64,000 nucleotides of DNA from Calditrichota bacterium (GTDB lineage: Bacteria; Calditrichota; Calditrichia; Calditrichales; Calditrichaceae). The DNA lies in contig RQOG01000130.1 in assembly GCA_003854985.1 (NCBI GenBank), forward strand, positions 1-64,000, given 5' to 3'. This document shows positions 11,515 to 64,000 of the stretch, one piece after another. The position numbers and the translations under genes were made by a program. Numbering within the stretch: position 1 is the first letter of the stretch; each line of letters starts with the position of its first letter. Below the pieces are notes generated by a model. The model was not told where the DNA came from, searched no databases, and saw nothing but the letters and a program-made list of their open reading frames with translations.

Positions 11515-14500
11515 TTAATTCTGCCGGTTGGCCGGCAATTTAATTACAAAATTACAAAATTCATTTTTGGCAAATTCCAACTCAATTTTACCGCCGTGTT
11601 TTTCAACATTGTTTTTAATGATATCCATGCCGACGCCTCTGCCCGACACTGTATTGACCGAGTCGGATGTCGATACACCCTGAAGAAATATCAGCTCCGC
11701 TATTTGTTGTTCGGTTAATCGTTCTATTCGGTCCGGTTGGATTTTCCCCGATTCAAGGACTTTCAATTTTACTTTATCCGCTTGTATACCCCGGCCATCA
11801 TCCCGGAATGAAATGCAAAAATATTCTTTTTCGAAATAGGACGTAATTTCTATGACCCCTTGTTGAGGCTTATTATTTGCCTTTCTTTCTTCCGGTGTTT
11901 CTATGCCATGTGAAATTGAATTTCTGACTAATTGCACAAGAATTTCCTTTACCAGAAGACGATGCTCGAAAGGAATTTTATGAACATGAAATTTATCATG
12001 CTTAAAATGCACCTGCTTCCCCATGCCTGCGGAAAGACTGCTGATAAGATGTCCGATCGAATTGATGAATAACTCCTTTTCATAATTGCGTTTTGGCCGG
12101 AAATTCGTCTGGAATCTGGAAATACGTTCGATTAACCGGTTGATTTCATCATAACTGTTATTCAGAGTAGCTATCCGCACTGAAATGGAAACAAAATCTT
12201 TCGAGTTGATATCCTTTTTATTTTTTACCAGTTCAATTTCATCTTCACAGGCATGAGCCAGATCGACAAATAATTTCAAATCCAGCAGACTGGCATTGCC
12301 TTTGATCAAATGAAGGGAGCGATACAAGTCTGCCAGCAATTCATATAAATCGGCTTCCAACACCGATTTTTTTAAAACCGAGTTGATATAAACCATTTCC
12401 TGCTCGGTGCTTTCCATAAATTCTTTCAGTAAAGAAGCGTCCACATGTAAAATGCTTAACAACATTTCAAGTTGACGCTTGGTTTGTTCTTCTGATTCTT
12501 TGAGTTTTTTAGCTAATAGTTTTTGTTCCGTTATATCGATCACGGTGAAAATCAATTGCGTATCTTCCCCATTGTTTCCATTCTTATTGATACGTTTGAA
12601 ATTAAACGATAAATATTGTAACTGTTTAAAATGCCCCGATTTACCATTGGTAAACAATTCGATTTCGGACAAGGGATTTAACTCTTCGATAAGCTTGTCA
12701 TCGATACCGGAATTAAGGTAAAGGTCAAAGTATTCCTTTATACTCACGATAACCGATTCCTGCGCCCTCCCCCTGAACAAGCTGATAAAATTCCTGTTGG
12801 CTATTTTTTCGATTCGTAAAATCTTTTCCAACGATTTGGAATACTGCGCTCCGATATTAAGCTTTGAATCCAGTAAAAAAATACCTTCTTCCACATTATT
12901 GAGAATATTATCGGTTTCTCTTTTGGCCGATTCCAGATTAATGTTCGATTCCAATAATTCTTTCTGCGCTTTTTTCCTGGTTTTTATTTCCTGCCGGGCC
13001 TGGAAATATAATCGTGCATTTTCGATAGCCGCCGTAATCTGGGTACTAAGCGTTTCGATAGCGGTGACGTCAAATTCATCAAAAGCGTTAACCTGATCGC
13101 ATTGGATATCCAACACACCGATAATTTTTTCCCCGCTTATTAATGGTATGGATATTTCTGATCGGGTTAATTCATCCTTATACTTTCTAAAATCAGGATT
13201 CAAATGCGTATCCTGACTTAATTGAATTTTCTTTTCTTTGCAGGCTTTCCCGATCATACCTTCGCCGACTTTGACATACAGAGAGGGTTCTAAGAATCCT
13301 TTATAAGTGCCGGCGGCCGCTTTTTGATCAAGTATCTGTTTATGCTCATTAAGAATAAATAATGAAATATTATTGAAATCAAAGGCTTCAAAAATAGTTT
13401 TGACGATATCGGCATACAAGGATTTTAGTTCCAACTGACTGCTTAAACTTTTACCCACTTCATACACAACCGAAGCCATAAGCAATTGACGCTGTGCTTT
13501 TCTTTCCGCTCTTCTTCTCTCGGAAACATCACGTACAATACTGATCCAGGCATCGTGACCTTCGTAATATATTTCATCTGATAAAATTTCAACATCAATT
13601 CTTTTGCCGGATTTGGTTACATGGGTATAGGAAAAGGGTATTTCCGGATTTTTGATATTAATGGTCTTTGACACCTTTTTATAGTCTTCGCCGGGATGTA
13701 AATCGAAAGGTGTCATCTTTTTAATTTCCTGGATCGAATAACCATAGATTTTTTGTACAACTTTCTCATTACAATCCAAAAAAAGATGCGTTTTCTTATC
13801 AAAGATAAAAATAGGATCCATTATCTGATTAAACAGATTAAAATATTTCTTTTCGCTTTCTTTTAATGCTTGTTCGGTTCTCTGGACTTTTTGCGACATT
13901 TCCTGGAGCGAATGGCTCATCTGAGCGTCATAAAAAAGAGCGGCCGCACCTAAGACAGAAATTTTAGATTCTTCGCTAACATCTATTTTCAGGCGAACAA
14001 CAGCATCTTTATATTCGAATTTTGCTATGCTGTTATACATGGAATTTTTAAAATATTTATAGGCTTTTGTTACCGGACCGCCTAATATTACTAATTCGGG
14101 ATCAACCGTATTCATAATGGTTATGATTACATTACCCAGATGCGATCCGAATTTGGAGAATATTTTAAGCGCCTTCGCGTCACCCAATAAAGCTTGTTCA
14201 AGTAACTGATCTAAAGTCAGATCATATTCGCTTATAAAAAACTTTTCGCTGCAGTAATGTTCAAAACTTTTATCAAGATAGGGCAGCCTGCCGAATTCGC
14301 CAGCGCTGCAATTAATACCGGCGGTTAACTTTCCATCAATCATAATTCCAGAGCCCAGACCGGTTCCCATCACCAGGCCTACAATATTTTTATAATTCCG
14401 GCCTTTTCCAAAATACTTTTCGCCGGTAACAAAACAGTTGGCGTCATTATTAATATAAACCTGTACATTAAATCTATCCTGCAGGATGTTTTTTAAAGGC

Positions 14501-14766
14501 GTTTTTTTCCATCCGGGTATGCTGTGTAAATGGTGCACAACGCCGGTTTCAAAATCTACCAGACCTGGCACTCCGACGCCAATTCCGATAACATCATTAT
14601 TAAAAACTTCTTCTACAACTTTCAGCACTTCGTTAAGAATTGTTTTTTCATCACGGTCATTGGAAATAAATGCGGAGGTATGCGCTTCGATAAAGCCTTC
14701 GCAGACACGTCCGACTCTGATTCGTCTGCCTTCCAGATCAACGCCTATAATAGGCTTTTTTTTCAT
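11515..14766 (-). CDS. hybrid sensor protein: ROK-like domain + PAS + GAF + PAS + HPt + CheA-type ATPase
   Basis: The 1083-residue protein is a rare fusion. Residues 1-280 are a ROK-family fold with GVGVPGLVD (63-71), NNDAN containing Asp108, and GTGLGSG (134-140). The usual DxGGT loop reads DLEGR, and the ROK zinc site is degraded (GEFGR, a single Cys), so it may sense rather than phosphorylate a sugar. Then come a coiled coil (about 282-305), PAS (305-415), GAF (435-590), another coiled coil, a second PAS (620-750), an HPt-like helical domain with His819 in LHLIKGN, and a HATPase with N-box Asn949, DDGRG (989-993) and SGRGVGM (1041-1047). There are no membrane segments, so it is cytoplasmic. 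The kinase core looks active. No response regulator is adjacent; a related degenerate protein lies at 61538-63028 beside CheY and CheX. Confidence 0.88.
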   Translation of the reverse strand: MKKKPIIGVDLEGRRIRVGRVCEGFIEAHTSAFISNDRDEKTILNEVLKVVEEVFNNDVIGIGVGVPGLVDFETGVVHHLHSIPGWKKTPLKNILQDRFNVQVYINNDANCFVTGEKYFGKGRNYKNIVGLVMGTGLGSGIMIDGKLTAGINCSAGEFGRLPYLDKSFEHYCSEKFFISEYDLTLDQLLEQALLGDAKALKIFSKFGSHLGNVIITIMNTVDPELVILGGPVTKAYKYFKNSMYNSIAKFEYKDAVVRLKIDVSEESKISVLGAAALFYDAQMSHSLQEMSQKVQRTEQALKESEKKYFNLFNQIMDPIFIFDKKTHLFLDCNEKVVQKIYGYSIQEIKKMTPFDLHPGEDYKKVSKTINIKNPEIPFSYTHVTKSGKRIDVEILSDEIYYEGHDAWISIVRDVSERRRAERKAQRQLLMASVVYEVGKSLSSQLELKSLYADIVKTIFEAFDFNNISLFILNEHKQILDQKAAAGTYKGFLEPSLYVKVGEGMIGKACKEKKIQLSQDTHLNPDFRKYKDELTRSEISIPLISGEKIIGVLDIQCDQVNAFDEFDVTAIETLSTQITAAIENARLYFQARQEIKTRKKAQKELLESNINLESAKRETDNILNNVEEGIFLLDSKLNIGAQYSKSLEKILRIEKIANRNFISLFRGRAQESVIVSIKEYFDLYLNSGIDDKLIEELNPLSEIELFTNGKSGHFKQLQYLSFNFKRINKNGNNGEDTQLIFTVIDITEQKLLAKKLKESEEQTKRQLEMLLSILHVDASLLKEFMESTEQEMVYINSVLKKSVLEADLYELLADLYRSLHLIKGNASLLDLKLFVDLAHACEDEIELVKNKKDINSKDFVSISVRIATLNNSYDEINRLIERISRFQTNFRPKRNYEKELFINSIGHLISSLSAGMGKQVHFKHDKFHVHKIPFEHRLLVKEILVQLVRNSISHGIETPEERKANNKPQQGVIEITSYFEKEYFCISFRDDGRGIQADKVKLKVLESGKIQPDRIERLTEQQIAELIFLQGVSTSDSVNTVSGRGVGMDIIKNNVEKHGGKIELEFAKNEFCNFVIKLPANRQN

Positions 14767-16277: not shown

Positions 16278-16757
16278 CTAAATTATTGTCTTTTCCAACA
16301 ACACTTTTATCAAAGCCTCCAGGCCTTTTTGGTCTTCCTGATCGAATCTTGCTAATTTTGGACTGTCAATATCCAGAACGCCAATCAGTTTATTTTCTTT
16401 AATCAATGGAATAACGATTTCCGATCGGGAAGCGGGATCGCAGGTAATATGGCCGGGAAATTCATTTACGTTTTTAGCGATAATTGCCTTTTTATTCTGT
16501 GCCGCAGTTCCGCAGACGCCGCGTCCTAATGAAATTCTGACACAGGCCGGCTTGCCCTGAAAAGGGCCGAGTATGAGTTTATCGCCGACCAGCCGGTAAA
16601 ACCCGGCCCAGTTGATATCAGCCAATGAATCATAGATTAAGGCGGAAAAATTAGCCATATTGGCTATGATATCCAGTTCGGAATCAAGCAGTTTTTCTGT
16701 TTGCCGGAGAAGCAGGTCATAGATTATTTGTTTTGAAATAATTTCCGGCTCAACCAT
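16278..16757 (-). CDS. msrC: GAF-domain free methionine-(R)-sulfoxide reductase
   Basis: The 159-residue single GAF domain has the three conserved cysteines of fRMsr: PACVRI, GVCGTA and ITCDPASRSEIV, plus WAGFYR near residue 50 and GVLDIDSP near residue 127. The enzyme reduces free methionine-R-sulfoxide using thioredoxin. The gene follows the DUF35 gene by only 6 bases and may be co-transcribed with the HMG-CoA synthase module, with no obvious functional link. Confidence 0.93.
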   Translation of the reverse strand: MVEPEIISKQIIYDLLLRQTEKLLDSELDIIANMANFSALIYDSLADINWAGFYRLVGDKLILGPFQGKPACVRISLGRGVCGTAAQNKKAIIAKNVNEFPGHITCDPASRSEIVIPLIKENKLIGVLDIDSPKLARFDQEDQKGLEALIKVLLEKTII

Positions 16758-61537: not shown

Positions 61538-63028
61538 TTATTTTTTAGGCAGGGTAATTGTATATTCGCAATATTCTTCGCTTGTAAAAGTAATTTTTGA
61601 ACGACCGCCATGCAGCGTTAACTTTTTCTTTACCATTTGCATATCCTGCAGAATACCGTCCGTATCATTCACATCGCCGATATGCATGGGATTGCTGGTA
61701 GGCGTAAAGAAAAGCTGCAGGACTTCCGATCCCAGCTGGGATTTTTCATCGATAGGATCTTCCTCATCAATGGCTGCATCCCGGGCATCGATAACTTTTT
61801 GTAACATTCTTTCAATCCGGATCAGGCGGCCGTCATGACGAAATTTAAAACCAAAATTTATATCATCATTAAAAGTTTCAAGTTCAATAGTCGCTTCAGG
61901 ATTGTGATTAGCGGCTCTCCTCTGTTCCGGCGTTTCAATGCTATGCAGGATTGTAAATTTTGTAAGAATAATTAAGAACTCCTTCACAATCTGTTGATGT
62001 TGAAACGGAATTTCCTCGCTGTTAAAGTCTTCATATTTAAAGTTAACTTTCTTCTTCGTTTCGATACAGAGCTCTTCAATAAGTTCACTAATGGTACTGG
62101 TAATCAATCCGTCTTCATATTTTCTTGTTGTGCGCAGGGAGTTTTTAAAATGTTTGACGCGGCTCATCAGGGTATGTATCTCCTGCATCATCATCCTTAT
62201 ATCGCCCAGCCGGACAACAATAGGAACAAAATCGCTGCCGCTGACTTCTTTTTTCTTTTGAATCTGGTCTAATTCATCTTTAAACCGGACGGCCTGGTCT
62301 TTGATAAAATTTAGGTCAAGTATTGCTGCATTACGCTTTATGCGATGAACGGCTCTTACAATAATATTTAACACCGAATTATATCCGCCGAAATCGATGG
62401 GATTTTTTAAGGCGTCATCAATTTCCTTCAATTCGTCTTCAACGACTTTTACGAATTCCTGGAGCAGAATCGGTTTGACATGAAGGATATTTACAAGCCA
62501 TTCAATCTGCTTTTTATTATAACGTTCCGATTCCTCCAGTTTCCTGGTCAGATCTTCTTCCGAAGAAATATCCTTTACCGTGCAGATAATACTTACAATT
62601 TTGTTGTCCTGAATTACCCTTTTAAATATAAAAGAAAGGAATCTTGATGAAAGCCATAATCCCGACTGATCTTCATAATGAAACTCGATTTTTGAAAGCG
62701 GATTAAGTTCGTTCAAAGTCTCTTCATCCAGATCATCCCTGAATAAAAATTCCAGATATTCCTGCGTACTGCGGATATTATCTTCAGGGATTCTGTTCTC
62801 CAGTAAGGAGAAAAATTCGCGTCCGGCTAAATCCGGATGATTTAACAGATCTTTAAGATTTGAGGAATATCCTTCCTGGATACAGAACTTTCTGTCCAGC
62901 ATGAATACGCCTTCCGAAATTGCGCCGAGTATCAGGTTTGTACGAACACGCTCCTGCTCCAGATCTTCATATATTGACTGAAGATCGGATGTCAGTTTGG
63001 AGATATTCTCCTGCATTTTATTCATCAT
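61538..63028 (-). CDS. degenerate CheA-like protein (PAS + HPt + broken ATPase domain)
   Basis: The 496-residue protein has an N-terminal coiled coil, a PAS domain (about 30-155), an HPt-like bundle with His228 in AVHRIKRN and a HATPase-like domain (about 335-496). The last lacks kinase residues: the N-box Asn is replaced by Phe358 (TKFTILHS), DDGRG is HDGRL (398-402), and the G2 box is absent. It aligns throughout with the C-terminal half of the 1083-residue sensor protein (11515-14766). It is downstream of cheX and cheY and may pass or store phosphate without making it. Confidence 0.85.
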   Translation of the reverse strand: MMNKMQENISKLTSDLQSIYEDLEQERVRTNLILGAISEGVFMLDRKFCIQEGYSSNLKDLLNHPDLAGREFFSLLENRIPEDNIRSTQEYLEFLFRDDLDEETLNELNPLSKIEFHYEDQSGLWLSSRFLSFIFKRVIQDNKIVSIICTVKDISSEEDLTRKLEESERYNKKQIEWLVNILHVKPILLQEFVKVVEDELKEIDDALKNPIDFGGYNSVLNIIVRAVHRIKRNAAILDLNFIKDQAVRFKDELDQIQKKKEVSGSDFVPIVVRLGDIRMMMQEIHTLMSRVKHFKNSLRTTRKYEDGLITSTISELIEELCIETKKKVNFKYEDFNSEEIPFQHQQIVKEFLIILTKFTILHSIETPEQRRAANHNPEATIELETFNDDINFGFKFRHDGRLIRIERMLQKVIDARDAAIDEEDPIDEKSQLGSEVLQLFFTPTSNPMHIGDVNDTDGILQDMQMVKKKLTLHGGRSKITFTSEEYCEYTITLPKK

Positions 63029-63112
63029 TCTTATCCGAACCTTGCCGGTTAATTAGTTTTATTGATATAATTAACCAACACCCATACTTCAAGTTTTTTC
63101 AATCGAACCGGT

Positions 63113-63559
63113 CTATTCTAAACAAACGATTAAAAACGATTTATGATCCTGCCAGGTTAAAGGAATTACAAACGACTGAATGTCATCAGGGGTTTTAATA
63201 TCCTTGGCTTTTCCTTCAACCACAACCGGCACGGAAATCATAAAATCCGTTCCAAACGCCTGGCGTACATTTCCGGAAATTGTATTGGCCACTTCACCGA
63301 TCAGGTCCTTGATTTCCGGCGATCCGACTTCCTTGGTGCCTAAAATGATACCTGCCAGTGTCTGCAGCATTTCTCCTGATGCGGTGATATAAATACTGCC
63401 TTTTCTTTTCCCGGAAATACCTATGATACCCGTATATTCAAGGACGACCGGTTCAGCGCCTTTCAGATAAGGTATGCCGGTGATAGGTTTATAACCGGTA
63501 ATTTCTTCAAAATAATTGACCGTACTGTCAATAAAAAAATGCAGATCAGTTTCTTTCAT
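63113..63559 (-). CDS. cheX: CheX-family CheY-phosphate phosphatase
   Basis: The 148-residue protein has the CheX/CheC/FliY ExxN motif in IGEVANTISGN (Glu89, Asn92), with the symmetrical alpha/beta fold evident from GSIYITASGEMLQTL. CheX removes phosphate from CheY. A GGGGGA sequence precedes the ATG. It lies two bases after cheY and 84 bases before the degenerate CheA-like gene, so the three form one operon. Confidence 0.88.
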   Translation of the reverse strand: MKETDLHFFIDSTVNYFEEITGYKPITGIPYLKGAEPVVLEYTGIIGISGKRKGSIYITASGEMLQTLAGIILGTKEVGSPEIKDLIGEVANTISGNVRQAFGTDFMISVPVVVEGKAKDIKTPDDIQSFVIPLTWQDHKSFLIVCLE

Positions 63560-63561
63560 TT

Positions 63562-63948
63562 CTATTCCCCCGATTTTAATTGGTTCAACAGGTTCTGGAA
63601 AGACTCTTTGAGTTTTTCTTCCGTGAATGGCTTGCCTACAAAACTTTTTGCCCCGAGTTTAATGGCTTTCAGACCGGTGGCTTTGTCTGATAAGGCCGTA
63701 ACCACCATAACTTTGACCTTTGGATCAATATTAATCATTTCTTCCAAAACCGTTAATCCATCCATTTCCGGCATGGTGATGTCGAGCGTAACGATTTGTG
63801 GAGAAGTCTCCTTGAACTTTTCAAGAGCTTCTTTACCATCTGCAGCCATAGCCACCAACTCCACATTGAAGATAGCAAGGTTTTTTTCAATAACTTTCCT
63901 AATGATTGTAGAATCATCCACGATCATTAGTTTAAATTTACCACTCAT
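63562..63948 (-). CDS. cheY: CheY-like response regulator
   Basis: The 128-residue receiver domain has the acidic pocket Asp11/Asp12, phospho-acceptor Asp56 in VTLDITMPEMDG, Thr84 and Lys106 (VGKPF). There is no output domain, so it acts by protein contact. An AGGAGG site precedes the ATG. Its only local kinase-like partner is catalytically degenerate; the related intact kinase is at 11515-14766. Confidence 0.94.
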   Translation of the reverse strand: MSGKFKLMIVDDSTIIRKVIEKNLAIFNVELVAMAADGKEALEKFKETSPQIVTLDITMPEMDGLTVLEEMINIDPKVKVMVVTALSDKATGLKAIKLGAKSFVGKPFTEEKLKESFQNLLNQLKSGE

Positions 63949-64000
63949 TTAGCTCCTCCTTACATGAATATTTAGATTAGTAACGTTTTCTATTTGAAGG

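Follow-up and report, generated by a model that had tools for sequence, protein, structure and literature searches.

A ROK domain with a degenerate ATP loop joined to a CheA-like histidine kinase in Calditrichota

The ROK family is a textbook case of how enzymes became sugar sensors that bind DNA, and one of the repressors, Mlc, is read by the PTS component EIIB. In the ROK repressors (Mlc, NagC and Lmo0178), a ROK sensor and an output domain occupy one chain, as is also observed for the protein described here, designated ROK-HK. The repressor output is an N-terminal DNA-binding domain, whereas that of ROK-HK is a C-terminal histidine kinase, and the zinc site is absent. The ROK glucokinases and N-acetylmannosamine kinases (PDB ID 2qm1 and FnNanK, PDB ID 5nck) share with ROK-HK the fold and four of five sugar contacts, but ROK-HK lacks their DxGxT loop and is joined to a signalling kinase. 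CheA resembles ROK-HK in its HPt phosphoacceptor and in its P4-type ATPase, whose boxes are the same, and CheY and CheX genes are located beside relatives of ROK-HK. Unlike CheA, ROK-HK has neither a CheW-like P5 nor a dimerisation domain recognised by Pfam, and its sensor domains are fused directly to the kinase. Lastly, the propeller-type sensor kinases of the phylum contain the same 467-residue module (~35–48% identical) behind beta-propeller/Y_Y_Y, response-regulator or PAS N termini, where ROK-HK has a ROK domain. The combination of known domains in ROK-HK is real and recurrent, and no earlier description of it was found in the open-access literature.

The ROK-HK gene lies in the window, the 64,000-nucleotide stretch of a Calditrichota contig that was analysed, as a single open reading frame of 1083 codons on the minus strand (11515–14766) with an ATG start and no internal stop. 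A sequence-only reading had placed a ROK domain N-terminal to a CheA-type histidine kinase, and Pfam and PDB sequence searches agree with this placement. The overall order is ROK-PAS-GAF-PAS-HPt-HATPase. In the 1083-residue protein, residues 7–279 (13930–14748, minus strand, as are all features of the gene below) match the Pfam ROK family with 133.6 bits (E = 1.3e-38, Pfam cut-off 22.9), and the PDB sequence search with the N-terminal part returned ROK glucokinases, kinases and repressors. A PAS domain follows at residues 317–416 (13519–13818; PAS_9 with Pfam PF13426/PF00989 and NCBIfam TIGR00229), and then a GAF domain at residues 447–582 (13021–13428), of which Pfam GAF_2 matches 450–582. 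The second PAS region, which begins the conserved kinase module (residues 617–745; 12532–12918), has no Pfam match and is assigned from the module alignment and the AlphaFold model, in which the strand and helix order is PAS-like, with a DIT motif at its end. The HPt-type helical bundle (residues 777–886; 12109–12438) is assigned from a Pfam HPt match at 779–849 that is slightly below the cut-off (20.9 versus 24.6 bits), from AlphaFold helices and from the motif HLIKGNA, which contains His819 and is conserved in the kinase family. The chain stops at a CheA-P4-type ATPase (residues 902–1079; 11530–12063), supported by Pfam HATPase_c (940–1079) and the PDB match to CheA P4 (PDB ID 1i58, E = 4e-28); no Pfam match to a CheW-like P5 was found in ROK-HK. 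The phosphoacceptor His and the N (947), G1 (989), F and G2 (1042) boxes are all intact, as the sequence-only reading had stated and as the module alignment and motif positions confirm. The positions that it gave, Asp108 and His819, are also exact; of the motifs that it named, DLEGR is at 10, GVPGLVD at 65, NNDAN at 106 and GTGLGSG at 134. The highest 19-residue hydropathy window (1.55) falls within the ROK fold, so ROK-HK has no obvious membrane segment. A free-standing GAF-domain protein of 159 residues is encoded two genes upstream (16278–16757, minus strand) and shows no link to ROK-HK.

The same fusion is observed in three other genomes, G004, G010 and G016, among 60 related genomes and 40 genomes of the phylum that were searched (G numbers denote related genomes, G000 being the source genome of the window, and L numbers further loci). 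The fusions span four genera of one order, G016 belonging to another family of that order, and measure 907 residues in G004, at least 783 in G010, where the contig ends, and 758 in G016. Since three other genomes carry the fusion, the join near 13930 is no assembly error, which disposes of one of the two cases that the sequence-only reading had named against itself. A merger of two genes by assembly or gene calling might be imagined for a draft genome of 180 contigs, but the uninterrupted frame and the identical domain order in three independent genomes, one of whose fusions is on a 399-kb contig, make such an artefact vanishingly improbable. None of the best 80 ROK relatives retained when 84,980 species genomes were scanned was seen to be joined to a kinase; their readable open reading frames are mostly 280–330 residues long, L074 being unresolved and L082, L116 and L140 being cut at the N terminus. 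Likewise, a 385-genome sample across the domain yielded no fusion beyond the four known. Stand-alone ROK proteins of the same clade, 43–47% identical in the alignment, are encoded in G005, G008 (two), G012 and G007, with a fragment in G013. Their neighbours include GH2, MFS, GH9, GH18 and LacI genes (G005) and L-rhamnose isomerase (G007), which places these relatives in loci for glycan use.

The AlphaFold model of the ROK domain (pLDDT 96) has a ROK fold. In a Foldseek search, the glucokinase 2qm1 ranks first, with a TM score of ~0.8 to both 2qm1 and 5nck, and the top matches also include the ROK repressor Lmo0178 in free, operator-bound and inducer-bound states; the close repressor structures are 5f7q, 5f7r and 1z6r. 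In human GNE kinase, the sugar is contacted by N516, D517, E566, H569 and E588 (PMC2742894), for which the alignment gives N107, D108, E157, R160 and E169 as counterparts in ROK-HK. Four of these five contacts (N107, D108, E157 and E169) are invariant in all 62 aligned ROK sequences (four fused, 58 relatives; all residue counts here are read from alignment columns), and the invariant D108 is the catalytic Asp of the NNDAN motif (106–110). At the fifth contact, where ExGH has its His, the fused domains carry Arg, Lys, Gln or Met: the sequence AGEFGR of ROK-HK retains Glu157 and has lost the His, a replacement that is clade-wide and extends to the stand-alone relatives.

This pocket conservation bears on what the ROK domain does. 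Were it above all a scaffold for dimerisation, without a regulatory ligand, sensing would be left to PAS and GAF domains, both present in ROK-HK. ROK proteins do dimerise, GNE kinase being an example (PMC2742894), and most members of the kinase family have non-ROK N termini. Such a role is nevertheless rather unlikely, as the sugar-contact residues are invariant throughout the alignment, the fused domains included, and as the linkers differ: PAS and GAF domains separate ROK and kinase module in the window protein and PAS_4 does so in G004 and G010, but in G016 no Pfam domain, and hence no PAS or GAF, is found between them, which leaves the ROK domain as the only obvious input there. A role as a docking platform for a protein partner in place of a small molecule is brought to mind by the Mlc/EIIB complex (PDB ID 3bp8), which is among the Foldseek matches. 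No sign of a partner was seen and a small ligand better explains the conserved pocket, so that docking is the least probable of the functional alternatives.

In contrast to the sugar pocket, the ATP loop is degenerate. The ROK signatures are DxGxT, the catalytic Asp, ExGH and a zinc motif (PMC5458393). The first of these, the nucleotide motif of the ROK kinases, is replaced in ROK-HK by DLEGR (residues 10–14; 14725–14739), which bears out the altered phosphate loop of the sequence-only reading, and none of the four fused domains retains DxGGT: they have R, A, P and P at position 14 and E, D, D and E at position 12. Among the 58 relatives, Gly12 is kept in 51 and Thr or Ser14 in 41, and the 17 without Thr/Ser14 all fall in a separate degenerate lineage of Bacteroidota type. 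The second phosphate loop reads GTG in two of the fused domains, that of the window included, and xEG, with Thr changed to Glu, in the other two. ROK-HK is thus assigned to the ROK fold only, with no claim that it is one of the ROK kinases. The domain could still be a working sugar kinase, in which case a bifunctional protein would report sugar flux and not concentration; the window protein still has Asp108, N107 and the GTGLGSG loop, and stand-alone relatives with an intact loop are found in sugar operons. Loss of DxGGT in four of four fusions, an acidic residue at position 12 where an ATP phosphate would sit and the Thr-to-Glu change in two of the four make this unlikely, although Asp108 is kept and residual catalysis may occur.

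The CxCGxxGCx(E/D) zinc motif is missing from the whole ROK clade, even from stand-alone members whose DxGGT loop is intact; zinc loss is thus no consequence of the fusion, and a fusion-caused break of the site is rejected. The sequence-only reading was correct that the zinc site is absent, but this absence is no special feature of ROK-HK. FnNanK is also without a zinc site (PMC5458393). A placement of the fused domains within the degenerate Bacteroidota lineage was considered and rejected, as a quick tree with poorly resolved deep branches puts them outside it. In genomes of the Bacteroidota type, a degenerate ROK gene with a GVxLGGK-like loop is located directly behind an intact ROK gene (L076, L085, L096, L099, L105, L108, L065, L072, L084, L092, L102 and L109). 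The degenerate partners group together in a single clade with support (SH-aLRT 98); the pairs are often found behind an MFS transporter, and that of L076 precedes a glucosamine-6-phosphate isomerase/PIG-L gene.

The kinase module of ROK-HK (PAS-HPt-ATPase; residues 617–1083, 467 residues) has eight other full-length members in the source genome and belongs to a family with 50 matches in 19 of the 40 phylum genomes. The other N termini in this family are propeller/Y_Y_Y sensors, response-regulator or PAS regions, and in a separate clade, whose members measure ~500 residues, the G2 box is gone and the phosphoacceptor His is often missing as well. AlphaFold models the module with moderate confidence (pLDDT 80, pTM 0.46), and the P4 part of the model superimposes on CheA P4 with a TM score of ~0.8–0.9, normalised to the target.

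The family is genomically tied to CheY and CheX. At the far end of the window, all on the minus strand, are the end of a 1714-residue propeller paralogue (63977–64000, running on beyond the window), a CheY-like single-domain response regulator (63562–63948; assigned from its open reading frame, its subfamily being set apart by an E-value gap from 9e-36 to 5e-17), a CheX phosphatase (63113–63559; Pfam PF13690, E = 1.8e-20), which is the only CheX found in the source genome, and a degenerate paralogue of the kinase module with its boxes lost (61538–63028). This cluster spans 61538–64000 and continues to 69121 past the window (G000:C100); in G029, G034 and G035, CheX likewise has a full and a degenerate kinase as neighbours. 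Across the 40 phylum genomes, 21 strong CheX matches (E < 1e-12) were found in 18 genomes, and 20 of the 21 genes lie within 0.7 kb of a kinase-family member. CheX is present in 18 of 19 genomes with the kinase family and in none without it (hypergeometric p = 1.7e-10, a value that ignores genome kinship). In G004, propeller-HK, CheY, CheX, ROK-HK and CheY follow one another on one strand. The ROK-HK gene of the window is an orphan, 48 kb from CheY and CheX. The source genome encodes two more CheY proteins of the same subfamily; a third CheY of the subfamily (L033, 16612–17007, minus strand), 51% identical and with no family kinase beside it, is on the same contig as the window. Unlike the setting of CheA, FliM was not found in the source genome (95% complete), nor in G004 or G010 (73–76% complete). 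The negative search in the source genome makes the flagellar motor an unlikely target, and a flagellar output was rejected.

Taken together, these data lead us to propose that a cytosolic, sugar-sensing ROK pseudokinase controls a CheA-like phosphorelay to a non-flagellar CheY, a mechanistic reading to which we assign a probability of roughly 0.6. ROK-HK would be a soluble sensor kinase whose input is a former ROK sugar kinase, now a ligand-binding pseudokinase. A cytoplasmic sugar or sugar derivative is predicted to bind in the cleft around Asn107, Asp108, Glu157 and Glu169 and, as the DxGGT loop for the ATP phosphates is gone, would be bound without turnover. In GNE kinase, the C-terminal helix lies buried within the N lobe (PMC2742894), and in the ROK-HK model a single helix continues from the ROK fold into the pre-PAS linker (residues 269–311; 13834–13962), where it may serve as a signalling rod. 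Lobe closure would shift this helix, packed in the N lobe and continuous towards the PAS domain, and its movement, together with PAS and GAF inputs, would determine how fast His819 is phosphorylated by the CheA-type ATPase. The phosphate would then pass to a CheY of the subfamily encoded beside CheX, and CheX would drain it from CheY; the orphan ROK-HK would use the CheY at 63562–63948, the proposed shared target. The sequence-only reading had also suggested a ROK sensor of a sugar or amino sugar that feeds a phosphorelay; invariant contacts and loss of the ATP loop in four fusions favour sugar sensing. A wider proposal, tentative and short of even odds, is a phylum-specific, non-flagellar CheY/CheX hub served by many CheA-like kinases with swappable inputs, one of them a ROK pseudokinase that gates the relay by sugar. 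The ROK fold has apparently been recruited a second way, as a histidine-kinase sensor, with the ATP loop lost as expected and the sugar pocket kept. If the proposal is true, a CheA-type phosphorelay is under the direct control of how far a former metabolic enzyme inside the cell is occupied by sugar. ROK-HK offers a case in which the change of a metabolic enzyme into a signalling input can be put to the test. It suggests that an internal sugar meter feeds a relay of the chemotaxis type, and it points to a CheY/CheX network of Calditrichota-type bacteria that is so far undescribed.

The two halves of the fusion appear to differ in history. A single clade of the kinase modules of the four fusions is rejected (AU p = 3.7e-11), as is a clade of the modules of the window and G004 alone (p = 9.4e-5), and the module of the G004 fusion is 69% identical to that of the adjoining propeller-HK. 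The ROK domains of the four fusions are compatible with one clade (p = 0.68), the tree constrained to this clade being 7.6 log units better in a quick search with poorly supported deep branches. A single origin of the entire fusion gene is rejected, and the trees call for recombination, gene conversion or repeated fusion. On these trees, the fused ROK domains may be one lineage, whereas the attached kinase modules are not. Read most simply, a single degenerate ROK lineage would have become attached to the kinase family, with exchange or conversion of the modules at a later stage; repeated fusion is an alternative history.

As a separate observation, the locus L044 of the source genome (G000:C14, 5174–12552) contains a propeller histidine kinase of the family and, behind it, a ROK gene of the ordinary kind whose DIGGT loop is intact, a gene for a probable mannose-6-phosphate isomerase and three short genes that, judged by eye, resemble those of shell proteins.
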